From the NCBI RefSeq assembly GCF_036621415.1, contig NZ_CP030941.1, positions 3,098,001-3,162,000 of the forward strand: a stretch of DNA of 64,000 nucleotides. Direction: 5' to 3'. Below are positions 49,505-64,000 of the stretch, in pieces. The notes beneath the pieces were generated by a model. That model was not told the DNA's origin. It made no database searches and was given only the letters and a program-made list of their open reading frames with translations. Numbering within the stretch: position 1 is the first letter of the stretch; each line of letters begins with the position of its first letter. The translations under genes and the position numbers were made by a program. Source of the DNA: Nitratireductor thuwali. Its GTDB lineage: Bacteria; Pseudomonadota; Alphaproteobacteria; Rhizobiales; Rhizobiaceae.

Positions 49505-50563
49505 ATGGCTTCGACCATGAAGGGCGCGGGTATCTTCCTGGCCCAGTTCGCCGGCGATGAGGCCCCCTTCAACAGCTTGCCTTCCATCGCCCGATGGGCG
49601 GCCGGACATGGCTATGAGGGCATTCAGATCCCGGCCTGGGATGGGCGCCTGTTCGACCTGGCGAAAGCCGCCGCCTCGAAGGATTACTGCGACGAGGTGA
49701 AGGGAATATGCGCCGAGGCCGGGGTCGAGATCACCGAGCTTTCCACCCATCTCCTCGGCCAGCTCGTCGCCGTGCACCCGGCCTATGACATCGCGTTCGA
49801 CGGGTTCGCGCCGGCAAGGCTGCACAACAACCCGAAAGCGCGGCAGGCCTGGGCCGTCGAGCAAGTGCTGCTGGCGGCGAAGGCGTCGCGCAATCTGGGC
49901 CTCGACGTCTCGGTCTCCTTCACCGGAAGCCTTGCCTTTCCGTATCTTTATCCCTGGCCGCAGCGGCCGGCCGGGCTGGTGGAAGAGGCTTTCGGCGAGC
50001 TTGCCCGCCGCTGGAAGCCGATTCTGGACGCCTATGACGATGTCGGCGTGGATGTCGGCTTCGAGCTGCATCCGGGCGAGGACGTCTTCGACGGCGCGAC
50101 TTTCGAGATGTTCCTCGACAGGCTTGGCGGCCACAAGCGCTGCACCATCAATTACGACCCGTCCCACTTCCTGCTGCAGCAGCTCGACTACCTGGCCTTC
50201 ATCGACATCTATCACGAGCGCATCTCCGCCTTTCACGTGAAGGATGCCGAGTTCAACCCGGACGGGCGGCAGGGCGTCTATTCGGGCTATCAGGGCTGGA
50301 TCAACCGGGCCGCCCGTTTCCGCTCGCTGGGCGATGGGCATGTCGATTTCACCGGCATCTTCTCCAAGCTCGCCCAGTACGACTACAACGGGTGGGCGGT
50401 GCTGGAATGGGAGTGCTGCCTGAAGCACCCTGAAGACGGCGCGGCCGAGGGCGCTCCGTTCATCAAGAACCACATCATCCGTGTTACCGAGAAGGCGTTT
50501 GACGACTTCGCCGGCGGCGCTCCGGACAAGGCGCAACTGCGCTCCATGCTCGGCATCGGATAG
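49505..50563 (+). CDS. TIM-barrel sugar phosphate isomerase/epimerase family protein
   Basis: A 352-residue xylose isomerase-like barrel, larger than the one at 44646. Metal-site candidates are in VGFELHPGEDVFDG, CTINYDPSHFLLQ, ISAFHVKDAEF and WAVLEWECCLKHPEDG. AGAAGGAGAACG precedes the ATG. Such 350-residue members are usually found beside a Gfo/Idh dehydrogenase, as here, and act on keto-sugars. A perfect palindrome follows its stop. Confidence 0.9.
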   Translation: MASTMKGAGIFLAQFAGDEAPFNSLPSIARWAAGHGYEGIQIPAWDGRLFDLAKAAASKDYCDEVKGICAEAGVEITELSTHLLGQLVAVHPAYDIAFDGFAPARLHNNPKARQAWAVEQVLLAAKASRNLGLDVSVSFTGSLAFPYLYPWPQRPAGLVEEAFGELARRWKPILDAYDDVGVDVGFELHPGEDVFDGATFEMFLDRLGGHKRCTINYDPSHFLLQQLDYLAFIDIYHERISAFHVKDAEFNPDGRQGVYSGYQGWINRAARFRSLGDGHVDFTGIFSKLAQYDYNGWAVLEWECCLKHPEDGAAEGAPFIKNHIIRVTEKAFDDFAGGAPDKAQLRSMLGIG

Positions 50564-50564
50564 G

Positions 50565-50597
50565 TCAGTTCACCGTTTCGCGGAAACGGTGAACTGA
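50565..50597 (+). terminator. Perfect 33-base palindromic hairpin after the isomerase gene
   Basis: TCAGTTCACCGTTTC (50565-50579) pairs with GAAACGGTGAACTGA (50583-50597) around GCG, with no mismatch. It begins directly after the stop. The following bases are only moderately T-rich (TTGCTTGATTTTACG). It could be an intrinsic terminator or a REP-like element. Confidence 0.6.
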
Positions 50598-50682
50598 CTG
50601 ATTGCTTGATTTTACGCAATTCCGGACGGAAAACCGGTTCCCACTTTTCCTGGAATTGCTCTGGAAGACGAAAGGGAAGCTC

Positions 50683-51861
50683 ATGGTTTCGGCCGCATCG
50701 ACGATCGCAAACAACCAACCGGTCCGCCTCGGCATGGTCGGCGGCGGGCAGGGGGCCTTCATCGGCGCGGTGCACCGCATGGCCGCGCGCCTTGACGGCC
50801 ACTATACACTGGTGGCCGGAGCGCTGTCCTCGGACCCCGAGCGGGCTCGGGCTTCGGCCGAGGAGCTGGGCCTTGCGCCCGATCGCTCCTATGGCAGCTA
50901 CGAGGAGATGGCCGCGAAGGAGGCCGCCCGCGAGGACGGCATCGAGGCCGTCAGCATCGTCACGCCGAACCACGTCCACTATCCGGCCGCAAAGGTCTTC
51001 CTCGAAGCGGGCGTCCACGTCATCTGCGACAAGCCGCTGACCTCCAGCCTGAAGGACGCGAGGCAGCTTGCCGAAACGGTCGACAAAAGCGGCAGGCTGT
51101 TCGTCCTCACCCACAATTATTCCGGCTATCCGATGATCCGGCACGCCCGCCAGATGGTGGCCGAGGGCGCGCTGGGCGACATCATCCTGGTCCAGGCCGA
51201 GTATCCCCAGGACTGGCTGGCCGAGCCCATCGAACAAACCGGCCAGAAGCAGGCCTCCTGGCGCACCGACCCGGCACGCTCGGGCGCCGGCGGGGCGATC
51301 GGCGATATCGGCACCCATGCCTATCAGCTCGCCTCCTTCGTGACCGGCCTCAAGGCCGAGAGCCTTGCCGCCGATCTCCACAGCTTCGTCGACGGCCGGC
51401 AACTCGACGACAACGCGCATATCATGCTGCGTTTTGCCGGCGGGCGCGCCAAGGGCACGATCTGGGTCAGCCAGGTGGCGCCGGGCAACGAGAACGGGCT
51501 GAAGCTCAGGGTCTACGGCACCAAGGGCGGCATCGAATGGGTGCAGGCCGATCCGAACTATCTGTGGTTCACGCCGCTGGGCGAGCCGCGCCGCCTCATC
51601 ACGCGCGGGGGCGCGGGGGCGGGCGACGCGGCAGCCCGGGTGACCCGCATTCCCGGCGGCCACCCCGAAGGCTATCTGGAAGCCTTCGCGACGCTCTACA
51701 CAGAGGCCGCCGCGATGATCCGCGCCAGGCGGGACGGCTCGGCGCTGCCCGACCTGCCTCTGCCCACCGTTCATGACGGCGTGGACGGCATGCGCTTCAT
51801 CGCCGCCTGCGTCGCATCGTCCCGCGCCGACAGCGCCTGGACCCGGCTCGACGCGGTTTGA
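50683..51861 (+). CDS. Gfo/Idh/MocA-family dehydrogenase
   Basis: A 392-residue dehydrogenase with VRLGMVGGGQGAFIGAVHR as the Rossmann start, the catalytic lysine motif CDKPLTSS, and GGAIGDIGTHAYQLASFVTGL in the C-terminal domain. It differs clearly from the one at 45621, so the operon has two distinct sugar dehydrogenases. The ATG at 50683 follows AAAGGGAAG; the frame is open 27 codons upstream without family sequence. It probably pairs with the isomerase at 49505. Confidence 0.92.
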   Translation: MVSAASTIANNQPVRLGMVGGGQGAFIGAVHRMAARLDGHYTLVAGALSSDPERARASAEELGLAPDRSYGSYEEMAAKEAAREDGIEAVSIVTPNHVHYPAAKVFLEAGVHVICDKPLTSSLKDARQLAETVDKSGRLFVLTHNYSGYPMIRHARQMVAEGALGDIILVQAEYPQDWLAEPIEQTGQKQASWRTDPARSGAGGAIGDIGTHAYQLASFVTGLKAESLAADLHSFVDGRQLDDNAHIMLRFAGGRAKGTIWVSQVAPGNENGLKLRVYGTKGGIEWVQADPNYLWFTPLGEPRRLITRGGAGAGDAAARVTRIPGGHPEGYLEAFATLYTEAAAMIRARRDGSALPDLPLPTVHDGVDGMRFIAACVASSRADSAWTRLDAV

Positions 51862-51898
51862 ACCCGGACAAGCCATTGACTGTGGCCGGGCTCTCCCG

Positions 51899-51918
51899 CA
51901 ATTGTCGCGCGACAATTG
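51899..51918. promoter_or_regulatory. 20-bp perfect palindrome before the aldose epimerase gene
   Basis: CAATTGTCGC followed directly by its reverse complement GCGACAATTG makes a 20-bp perfect palindrome in the 73-base gap, 17 bases before the ATG. The central CGCG fits LacI-type operators. It suggests separate control of the epimerase gene. Confidence 0.5.
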
Positions 51919-51934
51919 GCAAACGGGGGAGAAT

Positions 51935-52945
51935 ATGGCGGGCAAGGTGAGGAAGACTGCCGAATGGCAGGGCGGGGACGTCGTCGAAGCCGTGCTCGAG
52001 AGCGAAGCCGGCGTCCGCCTGAACGTCATGAATTACGGCGGCGTAATCCGCGATTGGCAGGTTCCGGTAGGCGGGCAGATGCGGTCGGTCGTGCTGGGCT
52101 TCGACCGTTTCGAGGACTATCCGGCCCACAGCCCTTATTTCGGCGCGCTGGCGGGGCGGGTGGCGAACCGCATCGGCGGCAGCCGGTTCACGCTCGACGG
52201 CAAGGAATACGAGCTGACGCCGAATGAGGGCCCCAACCATCTCCATGGCGGCCCCGGCGGCATCTCGCGCAAGCTCTGGAAACTGGAGCCGCTGGAGGCA
52301 AACGCCCTGCGGTTGTCCCTGTCCAGCCCCGACGGCGACATGGGGTATCCGGGCAGCCTGGACATGGAGGTGATCTACCGCCTCGACGGCTATCGCCTGC
52401 ATATCGATTTCGCCGCCGTGGCAAGCGCGCCGACGCCGGTCAATCTCGTGCAGCACAATTACTTCAACCTGATGGGCGGCGGCGAGGTGTTCGACCATCG
52501 TCTCGAGGTCGCCGCAAGCGCCTATACGGTCACCGACGACGCGCTCATCCCGACCGGGGAGATCAAGCCGGTTGCCGGCACCCGGTTCGATTTCAGGCAT
52601 GGCCATCCCATGCGCGATGAAAGCGGCGCGCCGATCATTCTCGACCAGAATCTGGTGCTCGACACCCGGCGCGACCCCGCCGACCCGGTGGCCTCCCTCG
52701 TCGCGCCGGACGGCTCCTTGCGCCTCGAGCTGTTCACCGATCAGCCGGGTCTGCAAGTCTATAATGGCGGCCAGATGGACATAAAGGCGGAAGGGCTCGG
52801 AGGCCGCCGGTACCCGCGCTTCGGAGGCATGTGCCTGGAGGACCAGCACTTCCCCGACGCGGTCAACAACCCCCACTTCCCGAACACGATCGTGGCGCCG
52901 GAAGCGCCCTACCGGCACCGTTGCGCCATCGAGATCCGCCCTTGA
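51935..52945 (+). CDS. Aldose 1-epimerase (galactose mutarotase family)
   Basis: A 336-residue mutarotase interconverting alpha and beta anomers of aldoses. Conserved parts are YGGVIRDWQVP, NRIGGSRFTLDGKEY, the histidine segment NHLHGGPGG, the second catalytic histidine in VQHNYFNLMG and the C-terminal CLEDQHFPDAVNNP with the catalytic glutamate region. GGGGGAGAAT precedes the ATG. Fits the end of the sugar operon. It is convergent with the leftward purU. Confidence 0.92.
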   Translation: MAGKVRKTAEWQGGDVVEAVLESEAGVRLNVMNYGGVIRDWQVPVGGQMRSVVLGFDRFEDYPAHSPYFGALAGRVANRIGGSRFTLDGKEYELTPNEGPNHLHGGPGGISRKLWKLEPLEANALRLSLSSPDGDMGYPGSLDMEVIYRLDGYRLHIDFAAVASAPTPVNLVQHNYFNLMGGGEVFDHRLEVAASAYTVTDDALIPTGEIKPVAGTRFDFRHGHPMRDESGAPIILDQNLVLDTRRDPADPVASLVAPDGSLRLELFTDQPGLQVYNGGQMDIKAEGLGGRRYPRFGGMCLEDQHFPDAVNNPHFPNTIVAPEAPYRHRCAIEIRP

Positions 52946-52998: not shown

Positions 52999-53859
52999 TC
53001 ACCCCTTGGCGAACACCACGGTCTTGTGCCCGTTGAGCATGACGCGGCTTTCAAGATGCAGCTTGACCGCGCGGGCCAGCACCCGGCTTTCGATGTCGCG
53101 CCCGGCGGCCACGAAATCCTCCGCGCTCATGGCATGGCTCACGCGCTCGGTTTCCTGCTCGATGATCGGCCCCTCGTCGAGGTCGGGCGTCACGTAATGC
53201 GCGGTGGCGCCGATCAGCTTGACGCCGCGCTCATGGGCCTGGTGATAGGGCTTGGCGCCCTTGAAGCTGGGCAGGAACGAGTGGTGGATGTTGATCGCCT
53301 TGCCGAACAGACGGTTCGACAATTCGTTGGAAAGCACCTGCATGTAGCGGGCAAGGACGACGAGATCCGCGCCCGTCTCCTTGACCAGCGCGAGCAGCTT
53401 CTGCTCCTGCTCCGCCTTGTTGTCCCTGGTCACCTTCCAGTGGTGGTAGGGTATGTTCCCGGCCTCGGCCGTGCGGCGCGAATCCTCGTGATTGGAGACG
53501 ATGGCGACGACCTCCGCATCCAGCCATCCGACGCGGATCTGGTAGAGAAGATGCAGCAGCGCGTGGTCGAATTTCGAGACCATGATGACGATCTTCCGCC
53601 GCCGCCCGCGGTCGGCCAGCGCCGTCTTCATGTCGAAGCGCGCGATCGCCGGTTCCAGCGCGCGCGTTATCTCCTCGCGGCTCACGCCTTCCGCCACCGT
53701 GAACGAAATGCGCATGAAGAAGCGGTTGGTCCGCTGATCCCAGAACTGGTTGGATTCGGCGATATTGGCGCCAAGCCCGGCAAGCTCGGTCGTCACCGCG
53801 GCAACGATGCCCGGCCTGTCCTCGCAGGAAAGGGTGATGTCGAATGTCTTGTGCGTCAT
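52999..53859 (-). CDS. purU: Formyltetrahydrofolate deformylase
   Basis: Hydrolyses 10-formyl-tetrahydrofolate to formate and tetrahydrofolate. The 286-residue protein has an N-terminal ACT domain (about 1-80, FDITLSCEDRPGIVAAVTTEL) and a C-terminal formyltransferase-type domain with the catalytic N190-H192-D228 set in INIHHSFLP and PDLDEGPII. It is the last gene of the leftward operon with the MocD/E/F-like oxygenase. That place suggests it recycles folate carrying the one-carbon unit released by demethylation. The ribosome site is weak. Confidence 0.95.
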   Translation of the reverse strand: MTHKTFDITLSCEDRPGIVAAVTTELAGLGANIAESNQFWDQRTNRFFMRISFTVAEGVSREEITRALEPAIARFDMKTALADRGRRRKIVIMVSKFDHALLHLLYQIRVGWLDAEVVAIVSNHEDSRRTAEAGNIPYHHWKVTRDNKAEQEQKLLALVKETGADLVVLARYMQVLSNELSNRLFGKAINIHHSFLPSFKGAKPYHQAHERGVKLIGATAHYVTPDLDEGPIIEQETERVSHAMSAEDFVAAGRDIESRVLARAVKLHLESRVMLNGHKTVVFAKG

Positions 53860-53918
53860 GGATAAGGTCCGGTTGTCGTGCGGGGCGCGGGCGCCGGCTG
53901 GTGGTGGGGCCGATGTCT

Positions 53919-54722
53919 CTATACGCCATCGAGCCAGGATTGGAACGCGCTCAGCACCTCGTCCCTGGCGGCAACCTTGTGGCCCGGTTGCGGATAGGCG
54001 CCGGACTGGACGTCGGAGGCGAACTCCCGATAGGCGGCGACGCGCTCTTCCTGAAGCCGCGCAAACTCGGCGGCGAAATTGCGGTAGACCCTGGCGTGAC
54101 GGGGAACGTGGCCCGTATTGGCTCCCAACACATCGTCGGAAAACAGATATTGCGCATCGCAGCCGGCGCCGGCGCCCATGGAGATCATGAAAAGCGAGCT
54201 TCTGCGTGAAATCTCGGCGGCGATCGCCTCCGGCACGACTTCGATTTCGGCGGCGAAAGCGCCGGCCTCTTCCAGCGCCTTCACCTGGTTCCAGACGAGC
54301 TTGGCCGTCTCCAAAGTCTTGCCCACCGCCGCAAAACCGCCGGTCCAGGTGGCCTTGGATGGGATCAGGCCGACATGGCCGCAAACGGGAATGCCCTCGG
54401 CGGCAAGCCGTGCGATGGTCTGCGTGCCGGCCGAGCAATAGACCGCGTCCGCGCCCGCCTTGTAGAGCGCGAAAGCCCAGCGGATGAAGTCGTCCGTCGT
54501 GCCGATCTCGTAGAAGTTCTCGCCGGGCACGGCGAAGATCGACGGCGCGGCGTCGCGGAAGGCGGGGTCGAGCATCATGTCCGTCGGCACCGACGCCATG
54601 TCGATCCCGGCGCGCTCGGCCGCCTCCGCCTCTTCCAGCGTCGTGACCCGCAGCATGGATAGCTGCCTTTTGCCGCGCAGGTCCCGCAGATCCTGCACCG
54701 TCTTTCGCTGTGCGCGCGTCAT
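53919..54722 (-). CDS. PanB-like ketopantoate hydroxymethyltransferase paralogue
   Basis: A 267-residue TIM-barrel protein of the PanB/PEP-mutase superfamily. Matching segments are GIPVCGHVGLIPSKATWTGG, the catalytic-glutamate region AAEIEVVPEAIAAEI, and SMGAGAGCDAQYLFSDDVLG. The usual metal-ligand motifs differ: GDS is replaced by PTDMM, and the DMPF-type aspartate region reads YCSAGT. So this is probably not the housekeeping pantothenate enzyme. Its family uses 5,10-methylene-tetrahydrofolate, which fits an operon with PurU and a demethylase; the acceptor is unknown. It lies three bases from the mocF gene. Confidence 0.8.
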   Translation of the reverse strand: MTRAQRKTVQDLRDLRGKRQLSMLRVTTLEEAEAAERAGIDMASVPTDMMLDPAFRDAAPSIFAVPGENFYEIGTTDDFIRWAFALYKAGADAVYCSAGTQTIARLAAEGIPVCGHVGLIPSKATWTGGFAAVGKTLETAKLVWNQVKALEEAGAFAAEIEVVPEAIAAEISRRSSLFMISMGAGAGCDAQYLFSDDVLGANTGHVPRHARVYRNFAAEFARLQEERVAAYREFASDVQSGAYPQPGHKVAARDEVLSAFQSWLDGV

Positions 54723-54725
54723 CCT

Positions 54726-55910
54726 CTATCCCTTCAGCAATTGTTTCAGTCTAGTGCCCGGATCGCAAAGCACCTCGGGCGCGACGACGATGCCGCGCTC
54801 GATCAGCTTTTCGGCAATCGAGATGTCGCGGGCGACCGCGTTTCCGGTGCCCACGCCGCTGGCCGACAGCACCCGGCCCTGACCGTCGAGCTGGAACAGG
54901 ACGAAGGCGCCGTCGCCCACCTCCCGCCGCAGGAACGGGCGGTCGGCCAGCGCAAGACCGGCCACCTGCAGGCCGAGATCGTACTGATCCGACCAGAACC
55001 AGGGCACGCGCACGAAACTGTCGCCGCAGCCCAGCATGGCGCGGGCGGCGTGGGCGCCCTGATCCTGCGCGCAACGCCAGCTTTCCAGCCGCACGGGGGC
55101 TCCGCGATAGGGAAAACTGCAGCAGTCGCCGGCGGCGAAAATGCTGGAATCGGCCGTTCGCAGGCATCCATCGACGACGATCCCGTTGTCGACGGCGAGC
55201 CCGGCATCGGCCGCAAGGCCCGTGATCGGCTCGGCGCCTATGCCGGCCACCACGATGTCCGCTTCGATCCGCGACCCGTCCGCCAACACCACGGCATGTT
55301 CCTCCAATGCCTCGACCTTGGCCCCGAGCCGCAGGCGGACGCCTTCCTGCCGGTGGCGGTCCTCGAACATGGCCGCGATCTCCGCCGGAACGGCCCGCGC
55401 CATCAACCGGTCCGCGGCTTCAAGGACGGTCACTTCCGCGCCCAGCCCGCGCGCCGTGGCCGCCAGCTCCAGCCCGATAAAGCCGCCGCCGATGATGACG
55501 AGCTTCGTGCCGGCACCGATGGCCGACAGGATGGCGTCCGCATCGCCGACGCTGCGCAGGGTGCGCGCCTTTTCCATGCCGGCAAAGCGGCGCGCCCGCG
55601 CGCCCGTCGCGATCAGCAGCCTGTCGTAGTCGAGCGTCCGGCCGTCCGCGAGAACGAGGCGCCTGTTCTCCCGGTCGATGCGCTGGCCCCGTGTGCCGCG
55701 CAAAAGATCGATGGACAGGTCCCGGTAGCGCGTCTCCTCCGCGATGAGCTTGACGGCCGGCGGCGCATTCTTGGAAAGCGGCGGCCGCTCGTAGGGAAGA
55801 TGCGGCTCCTCGCCGACCAGCGTGACGGTGCCCTCGTAGCCTTCCTCGCGCAGGGTGAATGCGGCGCGCACGCCGCACTCGCCCGCGCCGACGATGACCA
55901 TGCCGCCCAT
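54726..55910 (-). CDS. mocF: FAD-dependent ferredoxin reductase of the MocDEF-like oxygenase
   Basis: A 394-residue NAD(P)H:ferredoxin reductase of the rubredoxin/putidaredoxin-reductase type. FAD site MVIVGAGECGVRAAF, then PYERPPLSK, NAD site LVIIGGGFIGLELAATARGLG and FAD-binding IFAAGDCCSFPYRG. It would pass electrons from NAD(P)H to the Rieske ferredoxin encoded just upstream. The start is placed at the ATG at 55910, three bases after the mocE stop; an ATG three codons later is possible. The gene name follows context and recall of the rhizopine mocDEF genes. Confidence 0.85.
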   Translation of the reverse strand: MGGMVIVGAGECGVRAAFTLREEGYEGTVTLVGEEPHLPYERPPLSKNAPPAVKLIAEETRYRDLSIDLLRGTRGQRIDRENRRLVLADGRTLDYDRLLIATGARARRFAGMEKARTLRSVGDADAILSAIGAGTKLVIIGGGFIGLELAATARGLGAEVTVLEAADRLMARAVPAEIAAMFEDRHRQEGVRLRLGAKVEALEEHAVVLADGSRIEADIVVAGIGAEPITGLAADAGLAVDNGIVVDGCLRTADSSIFAAGDCCSFPYRGAPVRLESWRCAQDQGAHAARAMLGCGDSFVRVPWFWSDQYDLGLQVAGLALADRPFLRREVGDGAFVLFQLDGQGRVLSASGVGTGNAVARDISIAEKLIERGIVVAPEVLCDPGTRLKQLLKG

Positions 55911-55912
55911 CG

Positions 55913-56227
55913 TCAGGACAGGTCGATCAGGACGCGGCCGGCCTCGACCTTGACCGGATACGTCCTGAGATTGACGCAGACCGGCGCGCCCTTGGCCTCG
56001 CCGGTGCGATAGTCGAACCGGCCATTGTGCTTGGGGCATTCGATGATGTGATCCATCACCAGCCCGTCCGCCAGGTGCACATGTTCATGGGTGCACAGGC
56101 CGTCTGTGGCGTAGAATTCGTCGTCGGGACTGCGATAGATCGCGAAGGTGCGGCCGTCGTGATCGAAGCGGATGAGGTCTTCCTCTTCGACATCGTCGAC
56201 GGCACAGGCTTCCACCCACTGGCTCAT
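55913..56227 (-). CDS. mocE: MocE-like Rieske [2Fe-2S] ferredoxin
   Basis: A 104-residue Rieske ferredoxin. The cluster ligands are C45 and H47 in LCTHEHVHLADG and C64 and H67 in ECPKHNGRFDYRTG. It is small and soluble and should shuttle electrons from the reductase to the membrane oxygenase. TAGGGAGGT gives a strong ribosome site. It stands between the oxygenase and reductase genes in the order D-E-F, as in the rhizopine genes of Sinorhizobium. Confidence 0.92.
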   Translation of the reverse strand: MSQWVEACAVDDVEEEDLIRFDHDGRTFAIYRSPDDEFYATDGLCTHEHVHLADGLVMDHIIECPKHNGRFDYRTGEAKGAPVCVNLRTYPVKVEAGRVLIDLS

Positions 56228-56247
56228 GCGTACCTCCCTAGTGTCTG

Positions 56248-57336
56248 CTATTGCGCCGGCGCCAGGTCCGGCTCGACTTCGTGAAACTCGGCCCGGTAGG
56301 GCTTGGCCGTCGCCGGCAGCGCGCGCACCACGTAGTGGTCCTCGTAGCGAAGCTGGCGCAGGAACGCCGGCACCATCTCGCGGTAGCCGTCGAGGATCGA
56401 ACGGTTGGGCGCGGGCAGGTCGTGCTTGATCAGCTCGTGCAGTTGCGGCAGCGCGTGATAGGGGACCATGGGGAACATGTGGTGCTCCACATGATAGTTC
56501 ATGTTCCAGTAGATGAAGCGGCTGATCGGGTTCATGTAGACCGTCCGGCTGTTCAGCCGGTGGTCCGTCACGTCGTCTGCCAAGCCGCCATGCTGCAGGA
56601 GGCCGGTCATGACATGGTGCCAGGCGCCGTAGAGACGCGGGCCGCCGATCAGCAGGAACGGCAGGATCGAGCCCGTTGCAATCGCCGCAAGACCGGTGGC
56701 GGCGTAGATCGCCACCCAGATGCGTGCAATGCGTATGGCCCTGGGCTGCTCCTGCTCGGGAATGAAGGTCGCCTCCTCGGGGCTCAGTCGCCCGGAGGCA
56801 TTGCGCGCGAGATCGACCGCCGCATGCCAGACATCGATGATGCCGAAGAAATTGAGTGCCAGCCGCGCAAGGTCGGGCGGGCGCATGACGGCGATCTCGG
56901 GATCGCGGCCGACGATGATCGTGTCCGTGTGGTGGCGCGCGTGGCTCCACCGCCAGGTGACCGGATTGCGCATCATCATGAAGGAGGCGATCTGGTAGAC
57001 GGCGTCGTTCATCCAGCGCGTCTTGAAGGCGGTGCCGTGCCCGCATTCGTGCCAGCGCGAATCGGCGGCCGAGCCATAGAGAACGCCGTAGGCGAGGAAG
57101 AACGGGACCGACCAGGCCGAAGGGAACAGGTAGACGGCGATGCCGGCCAGGACGATCATCGACCCGAGCCATAGGACCGTGTCGCGGATCGCCGGCCCGT
57201 CGCTGCGCTTCATCAGCGCCTTCATCTCCTTGCGCGGCACGTCCGTATGGTACCATTCGGCCGAGGCGAGGCCGGTCTCCACCGCGCGCTTCGCGTTGGG
57301 GCCGACAAGACTGTAGTCGCGTTCTGCCGCTGCCAT
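56248..57336 (-). CDS. mocD: MocD-like fatty-acid-desaturase-fold oxygenase (probable O-demethylase)
   Basis: A 362-residue integral membrane di-iron enzyme. Three histidine boxes are present: HECGH (96-100), HARHH (132-136) and HVEHH (282-286). Hydrophobic helices lie around residues 52-90 and 205-235. The fold is shared by desaturases and alkane hydroxylases, but with the MocE and MocF partners it best matches MocD, reported to take part in demethylation of the rhizopine 3-O-methyl-scyllo-inosamine. It leads the leftward operon, with GGAGGAAC before the ATG. Alternative: a lipid desaturase. The inositol-type genes next door favour demethylation. Confidence 0.85.
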   Translation of the reverse strand: MAAAERDYSLVGPNAKRAVETGLASAEWYHTDVPRKEMKALMKRSDGPAIRDTVLWLGSMIVLAGIAVYLFPSAWSVPFFLAYGVLYGSAADSRWHECGHGTAFKTRWMNDAVYQIASFMMMRNPVTWRWSHARHHTDTIIVGRDPEIAVMRPPDLARLALNFFGIIDVWHAAVDLARNASGRLSPEEATFIPEQEQPRAIRIARIWVAIYAATGLAAIATGSILPFLLIGGPRLYGAWHHVMTGLLQHGGLADDVTDHRLNSRTVYMNPISRFIYWNMNYHVEHHMFPMVPYHALPQLHELIKHDLPAPNRSILDGYREMVPAFLRQLRYEDHYVVRALPATAKPYRAEFHEVEPDLAPAQ

Positions 57337-57411
57337 GGTTCAGTGTTCCTCCCTGACTATCCGCCAGTTGATGCGCAGAGACTACGGAACGTGCGGCGAT
57401 GCCTCAAGCAG

Positions 57412-57432
57412 AATGAAAGTTTTTCTTTCATT
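57412..57432. promoter_or_regulatory. Inverted repeat in the mocD-lacI gap
   Basis: AATGAAAG (57412-57419) and CTTTCATT (57425-57432) are perfect inverted repeats around TTTTT in an AT-rich divergent promoter region. A probable operator for the LacI-type regulator encoded at 57488. Confidence 0.55.
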
Positions 57433-57487
57433 TCCTATCATGATATGCGTAAAAGCATGATGTGAATTCCTCAGCGGGGAGAACGAC

Positions 57488-58522
57488 ATGGCCCGCCGCC
57501 CCACCATTGCCGATCTTGCCCGCAAGGCAGGCGTGAGCGTGGCCACCGTCGACCGCGTCCTGAACGGCCGCCATCGGGTGCGCGAGGAGACGGCCCGCCG
57601 CGTCTATGAGGCGGCGAGCGAGATCGGCTACCACGCCGCCGCCCTCATTCACCAGCGCATCACCGCCGATCTGCCGAGAATGGATTTCGGCTTCGTCCTG
57701 CAAAAGGAGACGCAGCCCTTCTATCAGGCAATGGCCCGTGCGCTGGAAGAGGCGGTCGCCGCGCGCCGCGACATCCAGGGCAGGGCCCATATCGCTTTCG
57801 TGCGCAACCAGACGCCGGCGGAAGTCTGCGAGGCGATGCGGGCGCTGGCCGGTCGCTGCGACGCCATCGCGGCCACCAGCCTCGACCATCATCTGGTGAC
57901 GCAGACCGTCGAGGCGCTTCGGGCGGAAGGAACGCCGGTCTTTTCGCTTCTGTCGGATTTCGCCCAGGGCGTGCGCGAGAGCTATGTCGGGCTGAACAAC
58001 ATGAAAGTCGGGCGCACCGCGGCGTGGTTCATCGCCCGCACCGCGCCGAGACCGGGCAAGGTGGCGATCTTCGTGGGCAGCCACCGCTGGCATGGCCACG
58101 AGTTGCGCGAGACCGGCTTCCGCAGCTTCTTTCGCGAATACGCGCCGCAGTTCGAGATACTCGAAACGCTCGTCAACCTGGAGACCCGCCAGGTCACCTA
58201 CGAGGCGACGCTGAGCCTGCTTTCGCGTCATCCCGACCTTGCCGGATTCTACGTGGCCGGCGGCGGCATGGAAGGCGCCATAACCGCATTGCGGGAAACG
58301 GCCGCGCAAGCCCCGCGTCCGTCGGTGGTGGTCAACGAGCTCACCGCCGATTCCACCCTGGCGCTGCAGGAGGGGCTTTTGATCGCGGCCCTTTCGACGC
58401 GGCCCTCGGCCATGGCCCGGGCCTTGATCAGCCTGATGATCGGAGCGGCCAAATCCGGTCCCGCGGATCCGCCGGGCCAGCTTTTCCTGCCGATGGCGAT
58501 CCATGTGGCCGAGAGCCTTTGA
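57488..58522 (+). CDS. LacI-family transcriptional regulator of the moc/inositol cluster
   Basis: A 344-residue LacI repressor. Its HTH is TIADLARKAGVSVATVDRVLNGRHRV at residues 6-31, with the less common VDRVLNG form found in inositol- and sugar-type regulators. A ligand domain follows with GFVLQKETQPFYQAMARALEE and KVAIFVGSHRWHGHELRETGF. It is divergent from mocD and precedes the isomerase and importer genes, so it probably controls both operons in response to an inositol-like compound. GGGGAGAACG precedes the ATG. Confidence 0.92.
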   Translation: MARRPTIADLARKAGVSVATVDRVLNGRHRVREETARRVYEAASEIGYHAAALIHQRITADLPRMDFGFVLQKETQPFYQAMARALEEAVAARRDIQGRAHIAFVRNQTPAEVCEAMRALAGRCDAIAATSLDHHLVTQTVEALRAEGTPVFSLLSDFAQGVRESYVGLNNMKVGRTAAWFIARTAPRPGKVAIFVGSHRWHGHELRETGFRSFFREYAPQFEILETLVNLETRQVTYEATLSLLSRHPDLAGFYVAGGGMEGAITALRETAAQAPRPSVVVNELTADSTLALQEGLLIAALSTRPSAMARALISLMIGAAKSGPADPPGQLFLPMAIHVAESL

Positions 58523-58548
58523 CGCAACGCCCGCAAGGGCGTCCGGTA

Positions 58549-58587
58549 TGCGATGAGAATCTATCATGAATGACAGGTTTCATCGCA
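58549..58587 (+). promoter_or_regulatory. Inverted repeat upstream of the isomerase gene
   Basis: TGCGATGA (58549-58556) and TCATCGCA (58580-58587) are perfect inverted repeats 23 bases apart, downstream of lacI. A further small stem ACGCCC-GCAA-GGGCGT lies at 58527-58542. They may be a processed or attenuating leader. Weak evidence. Confidence 0.35.
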
Positions 58588-58662
58588 CATCCGCGTTGAC
58601 CGTCCTGCTGCCTCTCTTCATGCTTCCGGTCATCGACTATCGAAAGGGTCAGGGAGGCCTGC

Positions 58663-59499
58663 ATGTCAGCATTTACGTCCCGGTTCGCGCTCAACCACAT
58701 GTGCGCGCCGAGCAGGTCGGCAACGGAATTTTTCGATCTCGCATCTTCTGTCGGCGTCCGGGGCGTGGAAATCCGCAACGACCTCGCCGGCAATGCGATC
58801 GTGGATGGCGCCCCCGCCGCGCAGATCAAGCGGGCCGCCGGGGAACGCGGCCTGCGCATCCTGTCGATCAACGCCCTGCAGCGCTTCAACGCGTGGACGC
58901 CCGAACGCGAGCGCGAGGCGCGTGAGCTTGCCGCCTATGCCCGCGATTGCGGTGCGCAGGCGCTGGTCCTCGTCCCCGGCAACGACGGAACGGGCCGTGC
59001 GAACGGCGAGCGCCAGGCCAATCTGCGCATCGCGCTCAAGGCGCTGCGCCCCATATTGGAGGACGCCGGCATTCGCGGGCTGGTCGAGCCGCTGGGTTTC
59101 GAGGTCTGCTCGCTGCGGCTGAAATCGGAGGCGCTGGAGGCCATCCGCGCGCTCCAGGCCGAAAGCGTTTTCAGCCTCGTTCACGACACTTTCCATCACT
59201 TCCTGGCCGGAGAGGAGGCGCTGTTTCCGCTCGACACCGGCCTCGTTCATATTTCGGGCGTGGGAGATCCTTCGGTCGCGGTGCCGGACATGCGCGACGG
59301 CCACCGCATCCTGGTCGACGAGCACGACCGGCTGGGCAACGCGGCGCAGATCCGCGCCCTCCTGGCGGGCGGATATGACGGGTTCTTCTCGTTCGAGCCG
59401 TTTTCCGAACTGGTCCACCGGGAGGCAGAGCTGGAAACCGCGCTTGCCGCCAGCATCAGCCTTATCGAGCGGGATGCGCTTGCGCCGGCGCGGGTTTGA
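58663..59499 (+). CDS. IolI/MocC-like TIM-barrel isomerase (2-keto-myo-inositol isomerase candidate)
   Basis: A 278-residue AP-endonuclease-2-fold protein. It has FALNHMCAPSRSATEFFDLA, VEIRNDLAG, ILSINALQRFNAW, LVEPLGFEV, LVHDTFHHFLAG and FFSFEPFS. These match the layout of 2-keto-myo-inositol isomerase (IolI), with the metal-binding glutamates and histidine expected in LVEPLGF, HDTFHH and FSFEPF. The rhizopine protein MocC belongs to the same fold. It lies between a LacI gene and an inositol-type importer, which supports an inositol substrate. AGGGAGGCC precedes the ATG. Confidence 0.85.
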   Translation: MSAFTSRFALNHMCAPSRSATEFFDLASSVGVRGVEIRNDLAGNAIVDGAPAAQIKRAAGERGLRILSINALQRFNAWTPEREREARELAAYARDCGAQALVLVPGNDGTGRANGERQANLRIALKALRPILEDAGIRGLVEPLGFEVCSLRLKSEALEAIRALQAESVFSLVHDTFHHFLAGEEALFPLDTGLVHISGVGDPSVAVPDMRDGHRILVDEHDRLGNAAQIRALLAGGYDGFFSFEPFSELVHREAELETALAASISLIERDALAPARV

Positions 59500-59522
59500 C
59501 GCTTCCGGGGCACGGCCGTTCC

Positions 59523-59609
59523 GGAAAATAGAATAGCGCTTGACGGCGGCGTAGAAAATGGAATAAAAATTACATATTGAGCGATTTATGGTGGCTGTGT
59601 TCCATTTTC
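59523..59609 (+). promoter_or_regulatory. Promoter and operator region of the inositol importer operon
   Basis: GAAAATGGAA (59554-59563) and TTCCATTTTC (59600-59609) are perfect 10-bp inverted repeats; a third related copy, GGAAAATAGAATA, is at 59523-59535. TTGACG (59540-59545) can serve as -35 with AATAAA (59562-59567) as -10, so the first arm would cover the promoter. The region is strongly AT-rich. Regulator binding is inferred; the GAAA-type arms resemble the mocD-side repeat. Confidence 0.55.
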
Positions 59610-59738
59610 GTTGAGAGTCGCACGACGCGAAAGCAGGTGCGGGATGGGCAAGCCACTGTAAACGCTCTGGAAAATCCCCTGGGAGGGAATCCGGTCTGGT
59701 TCGGGTGATGCCGGGCACCCAATGTGGAGGAGAAATCA

Positions 59739-60683
59739 ATGAAGAAACTTTTGCTTGGTGCAGCCCTTTCGGCGCTGATGACGAGCTCGGCCATGGCCGA
59801 GAAGATCGGCGTCTCGATGGCTTTGTTCGACGACAACTTCCTGACGGTTCTGCGCAACGGCATGCAGGATTACGCTGGAGAGCTGGATGGCGTCGACCTG
59901 CAGATCGAGGATGCGCAGAACGACGTCGGAAAGCAGCTCAACCAGATCCAGAACTTCATCGCTTCGGGTGTGGACGCGGTGATCGTCAACCCGGTCGACA
60001 CCGACGCCACCGTGGCCATGACCAAGGCCGCCGCGGATGCGGGCGTGCCGCTGGTCTATGTCAATCGCGAGCCCGTCAATGTCGACGACCTGCCCGACAA
60101 CCAGGCTTTCGTCGCATCCGATGAGCGCGAGTCCGGCACCCTGGAGACGCAGGAAATCTGCCGTCTTCTCAAGGAGCAGGGCAAGGGCGACGGCGCCAAG
60201 ATCGTCGTCATGATGGGCGAGCTTTCCAACCAGGCCGCCCGCATGCGCACCCAGGACGTGCACGACGTGATCGCCACGGAAGAGTGCTCTTTCATGGAGA
60301 TCGTCGAGGAGCAGACGGCCAACTGGAACCGCACGGAGGCGGCCGACCTGATGACCAACTGGCTTTCCGCCGGGCTGGAGTTCGACGCGGTCGTCTCCAA
60401 CAATGACGAGATGGCTCTCGGAGCGATCCAGGCCATGAAGGCCGCCGGCATTTCCATGGACGAAATGCTTGTCGGCGGCGTCGATGCGACCCAGGACGCG
60501 CTGGCCGCGATGGCGGCGGGCGACCTCGACGTCACTGTCTTCCAGGACGCGGCAGGCCAGGGCAAAGGCGCGGTCGATGCGGCTTTGAAGCTGGCGAGTG
60601 GCGAGGAAGTGGACCAGAAGGTGTACATTCCTTTCCAACTGGTCACGCCCGAAAACATGGATCAGTTCGCCACCAAGAACTGA
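59739..60683 (+). CDS. Sugar/inositol ABC transporter substrate-binding protein (MocB-like)
   Basis: A 314-residue ribose-type periplasmic binding protein. The signal peptide (MKKLLLGAALSALMTSSAMA-EK) is followed by IGVSMALFDDNFLTVLRNGM, IASGVDAVIVNPVDTD, VNREPVNVDDLPDNQAFV and NNDEMALGAIQAMKAAG. This is the class with myo-inositol, ribose and rhizopine (MocB) binding proteins. The neighbouring isomerase and IolG support an inositol or rhizopine ligand. GGAGGAG precedes the ATG at 59739. Confidence 0.92.
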   Translation: MKKLLLGAALSALMTSSAMAEKIGVSMALFDDNFLTVLRNGMQDYAGELDGVDLQIEDAQNDVGKQLNQIQNFIASGVDAVIVNPVDTDATVAMTKAAADAGVPLVYVNREPVNVDDLPDNQAFVASDERESGTLETQEICRLLKEQGKGDGAKIVVMMGELSNQAARMRTQDVHDVIATEECSFMEIVEEQTANWNRTEAADLMTNWLSAGLEFDAVVSNNDEMALGAIQAMKAAGISMDEMLVGGVDATQDALAAMAAGDLDVTVFQDAAGQGKGAVDAALKLASGEEVDQKVYIPFQLVTPENMDQFATKN

Positions 60684-60700
60684 TCGGGCCGGGGCGCCGC

Positions 60701-60727
60701 TTGCGGGACAAAAATAGGTCCCGGCAA
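60701..60727 (+). other. Hairpin after the MocB-like gene
   Basis: GGGAC (60705-60709) pairs with GTCCC (60718-60722), extended by TTGC (60701-60704) with GCAA (60724-60727) past a bulged G. No T-run follows. The rest of the 270-base gap to the permease gene shows no gene I can support. Confidence 0.4.
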
Positions 60728-60953
60728 CGACCGGCGCGTGGAAGAACGGGTATTCGCAGCGCCGCCGATGTCCGACAGGACGCACGGCGCTGCGAACTGC
60801 AAGGCATCCGCCGGACGCGCATTGTCTCCGGCCGGAGCCTCGCAATCTCTCCAACGGTCTCCGCGTCTTACGGCGCGGGACGGCAGCCGGCACGCAAGTG
60901 CTTGACCTGCTCGATGCAGGAACGTGGCCGGCGCTTCAGGATGGACAAAAGCG

Positions 60954-61982
60954 ATGGCAAACCAGGCACAGGCGATAACGCCCGGAAAACCGGATGAAAC
61001 CCACAAGCGGCCGCGTTCCCATGAACTCAACGCGCTGCTCGGTCTGGTGGGCATCGCCCTGATCTTCGAGATTCTCGGCTGGATGCTGCAGGGGCAGAGC
61101 TTTCTTTTCAACCCGCAGCGCCTCTCGATCATGATCCTGCAAGTGGCCGTCATCGGCATCATCGCCATCGGCGTCACCCAGGTCATCATCACCGGCGGCA
61201 TCGATCTGTCATCGGGCTCGGTGGCGGGCGCGACCGCCATGGTCGCCATGAGCTTTGCCCAGGTGAGCACCTACCCCCGCGCCGTCTATCCCGAATGGAC
61301 CGATCTGCCGGTCATCATCCCCCTGCTCATAGGCCTGAGCTGCGGCCTTATCGCCGGCCTGATCAACGGCTTGCTGATCGCGTTCACCAGAATACCGCCG
61401 TTTATCGCCACACTCGGCATGATGGTGACGGCGCGCGGCGTGGCCAAGTGGTATACGAAGGGCCAGCCCGTCTCCTTCCCGACCGACAGCTTTGCCTCGC
61501 TCGGCCAGGGCATGACGCCCGTCATCATATTCCTGGCGGTCGCGGCGCTGTTCCACATCGCACTGAAATACACAGTCTATGGCAAGCATACCTATGCGAT
61601 CGGCTCCAACGAGCAGGCCGCGCGCATGTCCGGCATCAATGTCGAGCGCCATCTCGTGCTCGTCTACGCCATCGCCGGTCTTCTGGCCGCGCTGGCCGGC
61701 ATCGTCGTCGCCGCGCGCGGGCTGACCGCCCAGGCCGGCATGGGCATCATGTACGAGCTCGACGCCATCGCCATGGCGGTCATCGGCGGCGTGTCGCTTT
61801 CCGGCGGGCGCGGCTCCATCGTCGGCACGCTCATCGGCGCCGTCATTTTCGGCGTCATCATCTCCGGATTCACCTTCCTGAGGCTGGATGCCTACTACCA
61901 GGAGATGATCAAGGGCGCGATCATCGTCGCCGCCGTGGTCGCAGACGTCTACCGGCAGCGCATGCGCGCAGCCTCGCGCTGA
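60954..61982 (+). CDS. Sugar/inositol ABC transporter permease (RbsC type)
   Basis: A 342-residue membrane protein of the ribose/inositol class with about ten hydrophobic segments. Marked stretches are GVTQVIITGGIDLSSGSVAGA, GLINGLLIAFTRIPPFIATLG and AIGSNEQAARMSGINVERHLV with GGVSLSGGRGSIVGTLIGA. The start is uncertain: the ATG at 60954 has only a distant AGGA, and a GTG at 60924 is possible. It pairs with the ATPase that follows 30 bases later. Confidence 0.92.
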   Translation: MANQAQAITPGKPDETHKRPRSHELNALLGLVGIALIFEILGWMLQGQSFLFNPQRLSIMILQVAVIGIIAIGVTQVIITGGIDLSSGSVAGATAMVAMSFAQVSTYPRAVYPEWTDLPVIIPLLIGLSCGLIAGLINGLLIAFTRIPPFIATLGMMVTARGVAKWYTKGQPVSFPTDSFASLGQGMTPVIIFLAVAALFHIALKYTVYGKHTYAIGSNEQAARMSGINVERHLVLVYAIAGLLAALAGIVVAARGLTAQAGMGIMYELDAIAMAVIGGVSLSGGRGSIVGTLIGAVIFGVIISGFTFLRLDAYYQEMIKGAIIVAAVVADVYRQRMRAASR

Positions 61983-62012
61983 GCCAGGCTCCGGCGCAAA
62001 GGGAGGAAACAG

Positions 62013-62795
62013 ATGAACACGGACCGCAAGATCATCCTCAAGACCGAGGGTCTCACCAAGCATTATGGCGGCGTGCATGCGCTGGAGGACGCGGATTTCG
62101 AGCTCTACGAAGGCGAGCACGTGGCCATCGTGGGCGACAACGGGGCGGGAAAGTCGACCTTCGTCCGCCAGATCACCGGCGTCGAGCAGCCGACCAGAGG
62201 GCGCATCCTGTTCGAGGGCAAGGAGGTGGAGTTCCACAATCCGGTCGCCGCGCGCGAGGTCGGCATCGAGGCGGTGTTCCAGAACCTGGCGCTGGCCGAC
62301 GACCTCGACGTGCCGTCCAACATCTTTCTCGGCCGCGAGGAGGTCTATTTCAACCTCGGCCCCTTCAGCTTCCTCAACCAGCGCAAGATGTACCAGCGCT
62401 CGCGCGAGGCGCTGGAGAAGACCGGCGTGAAGATCCCCAACCTGCACAATTCGATCGCCAACATGTCGGGCGGCCAGCGCCAGTGCGTGGCCATCAGCCG
62501 CGCCGCCAGCTTCGCCTCCAAGCTCATCCTCATGGACGAGCCCACGGCCGCGCTCGGCGTGCAGGAGACGACGCAGGTGGAGAACATCATCCGCAATCTG
62601 AAGGAGCGCGGCATCCCGCTGATCCTGGTCAGCCACAATCTGCGCCAGGTGTTCAATCTGGTCGACAAGATCTGGGTCTTCCGCCGGGGCCGCATCGCCG
62701 GAATGCTGGAGGCCGATAAGACCGACGGAAACGAGGTCGTCTCCCTCATCACCGGCGTGCAGTCGGGCGTGCACGAAAACGCAAGCTACATCTGA
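62013..62795 (+). CDS. Sugar/inositol ABC transporter ATPase, single domain
   Basis: A 260-residue ATPase with one nucleotide-binding domain: Walker A VGDNGAGKST (41-48 core), signature NMSGGQRQCVAISRA and Walker B LILMDEPTAALG. Ribose-type ATPases usually have two fused ABC domains of about 500 residues; this one has a single half and should work as a homodimer, as in the frcA/mocB-type systems of rhizobia. GGGAGGAAAC precedes the ATG. Confidence 0.93.
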   Translation: MNTDRKIILKTEGLTKHYGGVHALEDADFELYEGEHVAIVGDNGAGKSTFVRQITGVEQPTRGRILFEGKEVEFHNPVAAREVGIEAVFQNLALADDLDVPSNIFLGREEVYFNLGPFSFLNQRKMYQRSREALEKTGVKIPNLHNSIANMSGGQRQCVAISRAASFASKLILMDEPTAALGVQETTQVENIIRNLKERGIPLILVSHNLRQVFNLVDKIWVFRRGRIAGMLEADKTDGNEVVSLITGVQSGVHENASYI

Positions 62796-62886
62796 TCCTC
62801 CCACGGCGGCGCCTCCGGGCGTCGCCGGCCTTCATTCCTTCCCGGCCTCGGCCGCTGACATCGGCAGGCGCAACAGAGAGCGCATC

Positions 62887-63666
62887 ATGCGAAACGCACA
62901 CACACGCGCAGTCATCGTCGGGGGCACCCAGGGACTGGGTTTTGCCATTGCGCGGCAGTTGGTGGAGGAAGGCTGCCGGGCCATCGTCCTTAGCGGGCGC
63001 GACCGGGCAAAAGGCGCCGAGGCGGCCGCTGCTTTGGCCGTACTTGGCTGCGATGCCCATTTCGTTGCCGCCGATCTTGGCAATCTCGACGACTGCCATG
63101 GCGTGATCGAACAGTCCGGCGCGCTCATCGGTCCGCTCAACGCGCTGGTCAACGCCGCCGCGGCATGCGACCGCGGATCCTTGCTCGATACCACGCCGGA
63201 GGTCTGGGCCAGGCTGATGGACGTCAATGCGCGCGGACCCTTCTTCACCATGCAGGCTTTCGTCTGGCAGGCGCGCCATCACGGGATCGAGGCGTCGATC
63301 GTCAACATCGTGTCCATGGTGATCCATTGCGGCCAGTCCTATCTTGCGCCTTATTCCGCCTCCAAGGCGGCTCTTGCGAACATCACCAGGAATACGGCGC
63401 AGGCGCATCGCCGCGACCGCATCCGCTGCAACGCCATCGCCTGCGGGTGGATGGACACGCCGGGCGAGGACGCGACCCAGAAACGCCATCATGACGCGCC
63501 GGACAACTGGCTGGAACTGGCCGAGGCCGAACAGCCCTTCGGCCAGCTGGTCAAACCGGATCAGGTCGCGCCGCTTGCCACGTTCCTCCTGTCGCCGCAG
63601 TCCGGCGTCATGACCGGCGCGATCATCGACTGCGACCAGAACGTTGCGGGAGCCTATCCCGAATAG
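62887..63666 (+). CDS. Short-chain dehydrogenase/reductase
   Basis: A 259-residue classical SDR. Cofactor motif VIVGGTQGLGFAIA (residues 9-22), NAAAACD near residue 90, and the catalytic S143-Y156-K160 set (IVSM, YSASK). It ends with a typical C-terminal VMTGAIIDCDQNVAG. In an inositol-type operon it may oxidise a ring hydroxyl of the demethylated inositol or reduce a keto intermediate. No strong ribosome site: AGAGAGC lies just before the ATG. Substrate unknown. Confidence 0.9.
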   Translation: MRNAHTRAVIVGGTQGLGFAIARQLVEEGCRAIVLSGRDRAKGAEAAAALAVLGCDAHFVAADLGNLDDCHGVIEQSGALIGPLNALVNAAAACDRGSLLDTTPEVWARLMDVNARGPFFTMQAFVWQARHHGIEASIVNIVSMVIHCGQSYLAPYSASKAALANITRNTAQAHRRDRIRCNAIACGWMDTPGEDATQKRHHDAPDNWLELAEAEQPFGQLVKPDQVAPLATFLLSPQSGVMTGAIIDCDQNVAGAYPE

Positions 63667-63718
63667 CGGCCCGCAGAGCCTGTTTTCGACCCCTCAAAGA
63701 CGTTATAAAGAGAACCCC

Positions 63719-64000
63719 ATGACCGTAAAATTTGCTCTTCTCGGCGCCGGCCGCATCGGCAAGGTCCACGCCAAGGCGATTGCCGGGAATGCCGACGCCA
63801 AGCTCGTTGCCGTGGCCGATGCCTTTGCCGAGGCCGCGCAAGGCATCGCCGGAACCTATGGCTGCGCCGTCCGCTCCATCGACGAGATCGAGGCGGCGGC
63901 CGATGTCGACGCCGTGGTGATCTGCACCCCGACCAACACCCATGCTGACCTCATCGAGCGCTTCGCCCGCGCCGGCAAGGCGGTGTTCTGCGAAAAGCCC
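63719..64000 (+). CDS. iolG: Inositol 2-dehydrogenase (Gfo/Idh/MocA family), 3' end outside window
   Basis: The first 94 codons of a dehydrogenase whose start VKFALLGAGRIGKVHAKAIA, VVICTPTNTHADLIERFARAG and the catalytic-lysine motif CEKP are close to rhizobial inositol 2-dehydrogenase and to MocA. It oxidises myo-inositol (or a derivative) at C2 with NAD+. The window ends inside the gene; the rest is not visible. It lies after the SDR gene in the inositol-type operon and supports the pathway reading. Confidence 0.9.
   Translation, partial: MTVKFALLGAGRIGKVHAKAIAGNADAKLVAVADAFAEAAQGIAGTYGCAVRSIDEIEAAADVDAVVICTPTNTHADLIERFARAGKAVFCEKP

Follow-up and report, generated by a model that had tools for sequence, protein, structure and literature searches.

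A LacI-associated mocDEF locus of Nitratireductor thuwali with a PanB-like protein and a candidate role in O-methyl-inositol catabolism

The right-hand part of a 64,000-nucleotide window (C1:3098001-3162000) of the 4.75-Mb genome of Nitratireductor thuwali carries two divergent gene sets centered on a mocDEF-type oxygenase system. The leftward operon (minus strand) runs mocD-mocE-mocF-PanB-like-purU with intergenic gaps of 20, 2, 3, and 59 bases. It encodes a three-histidine-box membrane oxygenase (mocD, 56248..57336; PF00487), a Rieske ferredoxin (mocE, 55913..56227; TIGR02377, 189 bits against a cut-off of 136), an FAD-dependent ferredoxin reductase (mocF, 54726..55910; PF07992 and PF14759), a PanB-like protein (53919..54722; PF02548, 141 bits), and a formyltetrahydrofolate (formyl-THF) deformylase (purU, 52999..53859; TIGR00655, 337 bits, cut-off 286). 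Divergent from it, on the plus strand, lie genes for a LacI-family regulator (57488..58522; PF00356 and PF13407), a TIM-barrel protein resembling isomerases and epimerases (58663..59499; PF01261, nearest solved relatives 2q02 and 4hgx), and an ABC importer made up of a MocB-like sugar-binding protein (59739..60683; PF13407), a permease (60924..61982, start codon uncertain; PF02653), and a single-domain ATP-binding protein (62013..62795) that sugar-importer ATPase models match, all below their cut-offs. These are followed by genes for a short-chain dehydrogenase (SDR; 62887..63666; PF13561; NF004847, 350 bits, cut-off 240) and inositol 2-dehydrogenase (iolG; 63719..64000 and past the window end, L003:719-1723). 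All genes named in an earlier sequence-only reading of this DNA were found as open frames in place and matching family models. Its iolG assignment was confirmed (TIGR04380, 422 bits, cut-off 355) with the correction that the gene extends beyond the window, to what would be position 64723. Further on, within about 10 kb, iolC, iolD, iolE, and iolB each score above their curated cut-offs.

The histidine boxes of MocD (HECGH, HARHH, and HVEHH) are present and invariant across four aligned sequences, and the protein shares 77% identity with the MocD of L092 (Rhizobium bangladeshense 1002), a MocR-type rhizopine locus. A tree of 100 rows placed the MocD rows in a 92-row group (support 97/92) apart from four marine-type MocD-like rows and from four desaturase-family rows, the latter being uncharacterized and some of them on very long branches. 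This tree, which takes in L092 and leaves out L290-L296, showed an open fork and no division into a LacI-type and a MocR-type clade. A search among solved structures returned no match at an E value of 0.1. MocD does match PF00487, and of the 285 plasmid records matching it (276 with a query cover of at least 80%), most among the matches listed are annotated as "fatty acid desaturase." A role as an ordinary desaturase or hydroxylase of lipids is nevertheless extremely unlikely, given the identity to a rhizopine-locus MocD, a top score on curated desaturase models of just 31.6 of 500 bits, the company of MocE in 92 of 92 loci (see below), and the tree position. The kinship to MocD proposed from the sequence is supported, and the grouping with lipid desaturases named in the earlier reading as part of a refutation was not seen in this tree.

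We compared 95 loci with MocD matches and dropped three in which MocD was below 70% identity; the remaining 92 include many close relatives, so that the counts do not represent independent events, and contig ends truncate some of the loci. Downstream of mocD, matches were found to MocE (92 loci), MocF (87), the PanB-like protein (57), and PurU (19, or 22 anywhere in the locus); for the 83 loci with at least 5 kb downstream, the PanB-like protein was found in 51 and PurU in 18. Upstream, the counts were 90 for LacI, 59 for the TIM-barrel protein, 54 for the binding protein, 50 for the permease, and 42 for IolG, while the SDR was found in 23 loci and iolC/D/B in 14. Of the 51 loci that had the binding protein and 9 kb or more of upstream sequence, 42 had IolG; among the 35 loci lacking the binding protein, none did. 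The full set of LacI, TIM barrel, binding protein, permease, IolG, MocE, MocF, PanB-like protein, and PurU occurred in 9 of the 92 (six congeners and three Phyllobacterium). Since the neighbor genes recur across these loci, the arrangement is not due to chance. The mocD/lacI intergenic region contains a candidate LacI operator (57412..57440) composed of a perfect inverted repeat (57412-57432) and the motif WTCA-N6-ATCA (57427-57440). This motif is present in 80 of the 92 corresponding intergenic regions, whereas 200 Markov-shuffled sets averaged 2.8 such regions and never exceeded 8. Twelve loci without a PanB-like gene were inspected by eye (protein starts) downstream of mocF for a substitute formaldehyde gene: no consistent one-carbon gene was seen there, and the genes present included an FMN-reductase-like gene with an EamA-type transporter gene in five Rhizobium loci and galM in two Aminobacter loci.

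Rhizopine units consist of mocDEF, mocR, mocBA, and mocC (PMC10107442). The MocR of L092 passes the curated rhizopine-MocR model (743 bits, cut-off 650), and the best two moc-box pairs in its 21 kb sit immediately upstream of mocB and mocD. Searching plasmids with this MocR gave 14 records at 80 to 90% identity and 13 below 60%, and seven of the 14 were compared in detail. In all eight MocR-type loci (L092 and the seven plasmid loci), MocD, MocE, MocF, PanB-like, and PurU matches follow in that order, which supports the earlier assignment of the one-carbon genes to the demethylase operon. Each of the eight also has a moc-box pair, with 0 to 4 mismatches out of 22 in front of mocD and 3 to 4 in front of mocB, and seven stretches contain a MocC-like gene (missing in L292). 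L293 has a shorter MocD match, and mocD does not appear in its gene table. The PanB-like match of Sinorhizobium meliloti BL225C (L294:13407-14191) is split in two and may represent a disrupted gene.

The N. thuwali locus shares with the rhizopine moc loci MocDEF, a MocB-like protein, and the PanB-like and PurU proteins encoded after mocDEF. It differs in having LacI where moc loci have MocR, a TIM-barrel protein where they have MocC, IolG where they have MocA, and a full ABC importer within the operon. Catabolism of rhizopine (3-O-methyl-scyllo-inosamine [3-O-MSI]) under a different regulator would account for the shared proteins, including a binding protein 69% identical to MocB of L092, but we consider it quite unlikely. 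No MocR above the cut-off was found in this genome (best 437 of 650 bits, away from the locus). At a limit of 6 mismatches out of 22, the two promoters scanned (57300-57999 and 59400-59799) showed no moc-box, against 0 to 4 mismatches upstream of mocD in the MocR-type loci, and it is for these two reasons that the locus was not filed as rhizopine type. MocC is missing at the locus as well, and a true IolG stands in the place of MocA. In addition, a MocR biosensor tested on compounds including ononitol and pinitol was activated by scyllo-inosamine and L-3-O-MSI (PMC6668481), and given this result, a separate sensor for ononitol or pinitol would make sense.

The rhizopine binding-protein model NF052284 scored only 38 of 420 bits on the MocB-like protein, so that the "MocB-class" label of the importer stands as kinship to MocB of a MocR-type locus and not as membership in that model. 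MocB of L092 likewise gave no NF052284 match at an E value of 1e-20. NF052284 was passed by 10 of 297 genomes of the order and the MocR model NF052281 by 14 of 394 genomes of the family; the 24 loci concerned (L192-L201 and L276-L289) showed no MocD, MocE, or MocF match within 10 to 19 kb, some of them being cut by contig ends. The NCBI rhizopine models for MocB and MocR were poor guides to mocDEF and seem to cover a wider inosamine group.

On balance, we favor with moderate confidence the view that the locus serves, under LacI control, to catabolize a neutral O-methyl-inositol, one belonging to the pinitol/ononitol class. The kinship of MocD, the presence of a true IolG with iolC/D/E/B adjoining, the relatedness of the binding protein to MocB, and the tracking of the binding protein by IolG across loci all argue for this. 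So do published expression results for Rhizobium mesoamericanum exposed to Mimosa root exudate, in which mocDEF homologues were upregulated 1.5- to 2.1-fold, a mocB-like ABC importer 4- to 4.7-fold, and iol genes as well, pinitol being the most concentrated exudate component at 145 µM; the authors interpret the induction as rhizopine use (PMC5789663). Two papers were checked for expression data on the R. leguminosarum 3841 locus, and none were found there. Of the substrate proposed from the sequence, a methyl ether of an inositol, the link to inositol is supported and rhizopine proper is disfavored by the LacI regulator and the lack of MocR and moc-box matches. Alternatively, MocDEF might demethylate an O-methylated sugar, with the iol genes being mere neighbors. 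The predicted model of the binding protein is near glucose/galactose receptors, a galM gene adjoins purU, and sugar-acid dehydratases occur in distant PanB-like loci, all of which would suit a sugar. We regard this alternative as unlikely, because a true IolG is encoded within the same operon, the MocB-like protein and MocD are akin to rhizopine MocB and MocD, and iol genes lie near the locus in 14 of the 92 loci.

For an O-methyl-inositol substrate, we infer from the gene content the following order of reactions. The MocB-like ABC importer would take up the cyclitol, and NAD(P)H would supply electrons via MocF and MocE to MocD, which would hydroxylate the O-methyl group to a hemiacetal that falls apart into an inositol and toxic formaldehyde. 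The TIM-barrel protein, the SDR, and IolG would convert the inositol, isomerized if needed, to an inosose, which would then be processed by the neighboring IolE, IolD, IolB, and IolC. The methyl carbon would be transferred to tetrahydrofolate (THF), probably with the help of the PanB-like protein, and FolD, which is present in the genome, would yield the formyl-THF from which PurU releases formate. A second purU copy is located at C1:1180651.

The PanB-like protein is matched by PF02548 at profile positions 93-258 only, with a score far below the PanB equivalog cut-offs, and its predicted model retains the PanB fold. Residues D84, K112, and E114 were found in nine of nine canonical PanB proteins and in none of 29 PanB-like proteins; at the D45 position, two of the 29 align a D, within a gapped stretch. 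We take D45, D84, K112, and E114 of PanB to be the Mg ligands and 2-oxoacid residues. H136 and E181, the latter being the general base of PanB, are kept in all 29. By alignment and predicted model, the protein has thus kept the ketopantoate-transferase fold with His136 and Glu181 and lost the metal and 2-oxoacid residues, and unlike PanB it is encoded in a demethylase operon. It is also the only PF02548 match of this genome, in which no canonical panB was found and panC is present (C1:3014916-3015737; L068), as would be expected if it were the ketopantoate synthase of N. thuwali and stood here by chance. We judge this very unlikely in view of the lost residues. Among 61 genomes of relatives surveyed for PF02548 around the oxygenase, a low-scoring PanB-like protein was encoded within about 3 kb in 11 of the 11 genomes (this one included) with an oxygenase of 64% identity or more, and nine of these have a separate full-length PanB. 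Moreover, three congeners (G010, G012, and G015) manage without any PF02548 match. Other PF02548 matches of 80 to 109 bits were found in G027 (two, on other contigs) and G034.

Some PanB-like relatives adjoin other oxygenase families. With the queries used, and by eye, nine relatives had no oxygenase nearby (L241, L242, L244, L245, L247, L204, L205, L251, and L255), indicating that the link to oxygenases does not span the whole superfamily. L240 brings together PurU, a PanB-like protein, a Rieske protein, IolG, IolC, and IolD, with no oxygenase identified there. L238, L239, L254, and L256 (no PanB-like gene called) and L243 (which looks like canonical panB) were not scored. The 1.6-Mb genome G492 (L252) has five PanB-like matches; at one of its loci, which also encodes an ABC importer and a sugar-acid dehydratase, two MocD-type oxygenases and one of the sterol-desaturase type surround the PanB-like gene, possibly for O-methyl-sugar demethylation. 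In Bradyrhizobium sp. CW1 plasmid pCW1_1 (L202), one cluster encodes a PanB-like protein, a sterol-desaturase-type oxygenase, a Rieske protein, a TIM barrel, an FAD reductase, and a ribokinase, apparently an independent three-component system.

No enzyme with the dedicated function of loading formaldehyde onto THF is known to us. A tentative and rather speculative possibility is that the PanB-like protein is such a THF-dependent formaldehyde-capturing enzyme, a folate counterpart of Fae, serving several families of demethylating oxygenases. It would accept either free formaldehyde or the hydroxymethyl group from the demethylation hemiacetal and transfer it to THF to give 5,10-methylene-THF, and FolD and PurU would complete a demethylase-linked folate route to formate. 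The likeness to Fae, which uses tetrahydromethanopterin, would lie in the proposed job alone, in which an enzyme attaches formaldehyde to a pterin carrier; the protein and the carrier are different, and no match to PF08714 (Fae) was found in this genome. The uncatalyzed reaction of formaldehyde with THF has been judged too slow to support growth; the same study considered two promiscuous enzymes as candidates, Escherichia coli PanB among them, and deleting both changed nothing (PMC7073904). The demethylase-linked PanB-like protein makes enzymatic formaldehyde loading onto THF directly testable and is the most valuable piece of the locus.

The claim of the sequence-only reading that this arrangement had not been described is not supported. 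In 2013, Sullivan et al. described LacI genes of the fixV type that run divergently from mocDEF and precede a TIM-barrel gene, and they suggested an inositol derivative as the signal (PMC3538637). The N. thuwali lacI, divergent from mocDEF and followed by a TIM-barrel gene, shows the same arrangement, the likeness being one of layout; it differs from the fixV/msi119-type loci in also having the ABC importer, SDR, iolG, and PurU and in having no nifA link. The LacI/TIM/mocDEF layout is widespread in Rhizobiales, so there is no novelty in that part. The order mocDEF, PanB-like gene, and purU is already annotated, unremarked, in rhizopine-type plasmid loci; the main text of PMC10107442 contains no occurrence of purU, panB, or formaldehyde. 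Among the literature matches listed, titles and the opening lines of abstracts contained no mention of mocDEF together with a PanB-like protein or purU, and no bacterial demethylation route (demethylase) for pinitol or ononitol, earlier print being possible in both cases. The locus is real and conserved, and the sequence-only reading of it was good in outline; sequence databases already contain the arrangement, and part of it has been published. Pinitol and ononitol occur widely in legumes and build up in nodules (PMC8730688), and FixV homologues at such loci have been tied to a signal, possibly inositol derived, for turning on Mesorhizobium nitrogen-fixation genes (PMC3538637). A substrate found here would point to that FixV-linked signal.

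Several further genes surround the locus. Between iolG and the iol cluster lies a gene for a levoglucosan-dehydrogenase-like protein (L003:2258-3376, minus strand; 333 bits, cut-off 650), and near the iol genes is an RpiR-type regulator-like gene, recognized by eye and with no NCBIfam match at an E value of 1e-30. Past iolB (L003:10449-17000, by eye) are genes for a LysE-type exporter, an SMP-30-like protein, and a second ABC importer for sugars that includes two permeases. On the other side, adjoining purU at 49505-52945 of the window (plus strand), is a set encoding a second TIM-barrel protein, a Gfo/Idh protein, and GalM, which is kept wholly or partly beside the moc locus in congeners (L069 and L071-L075).

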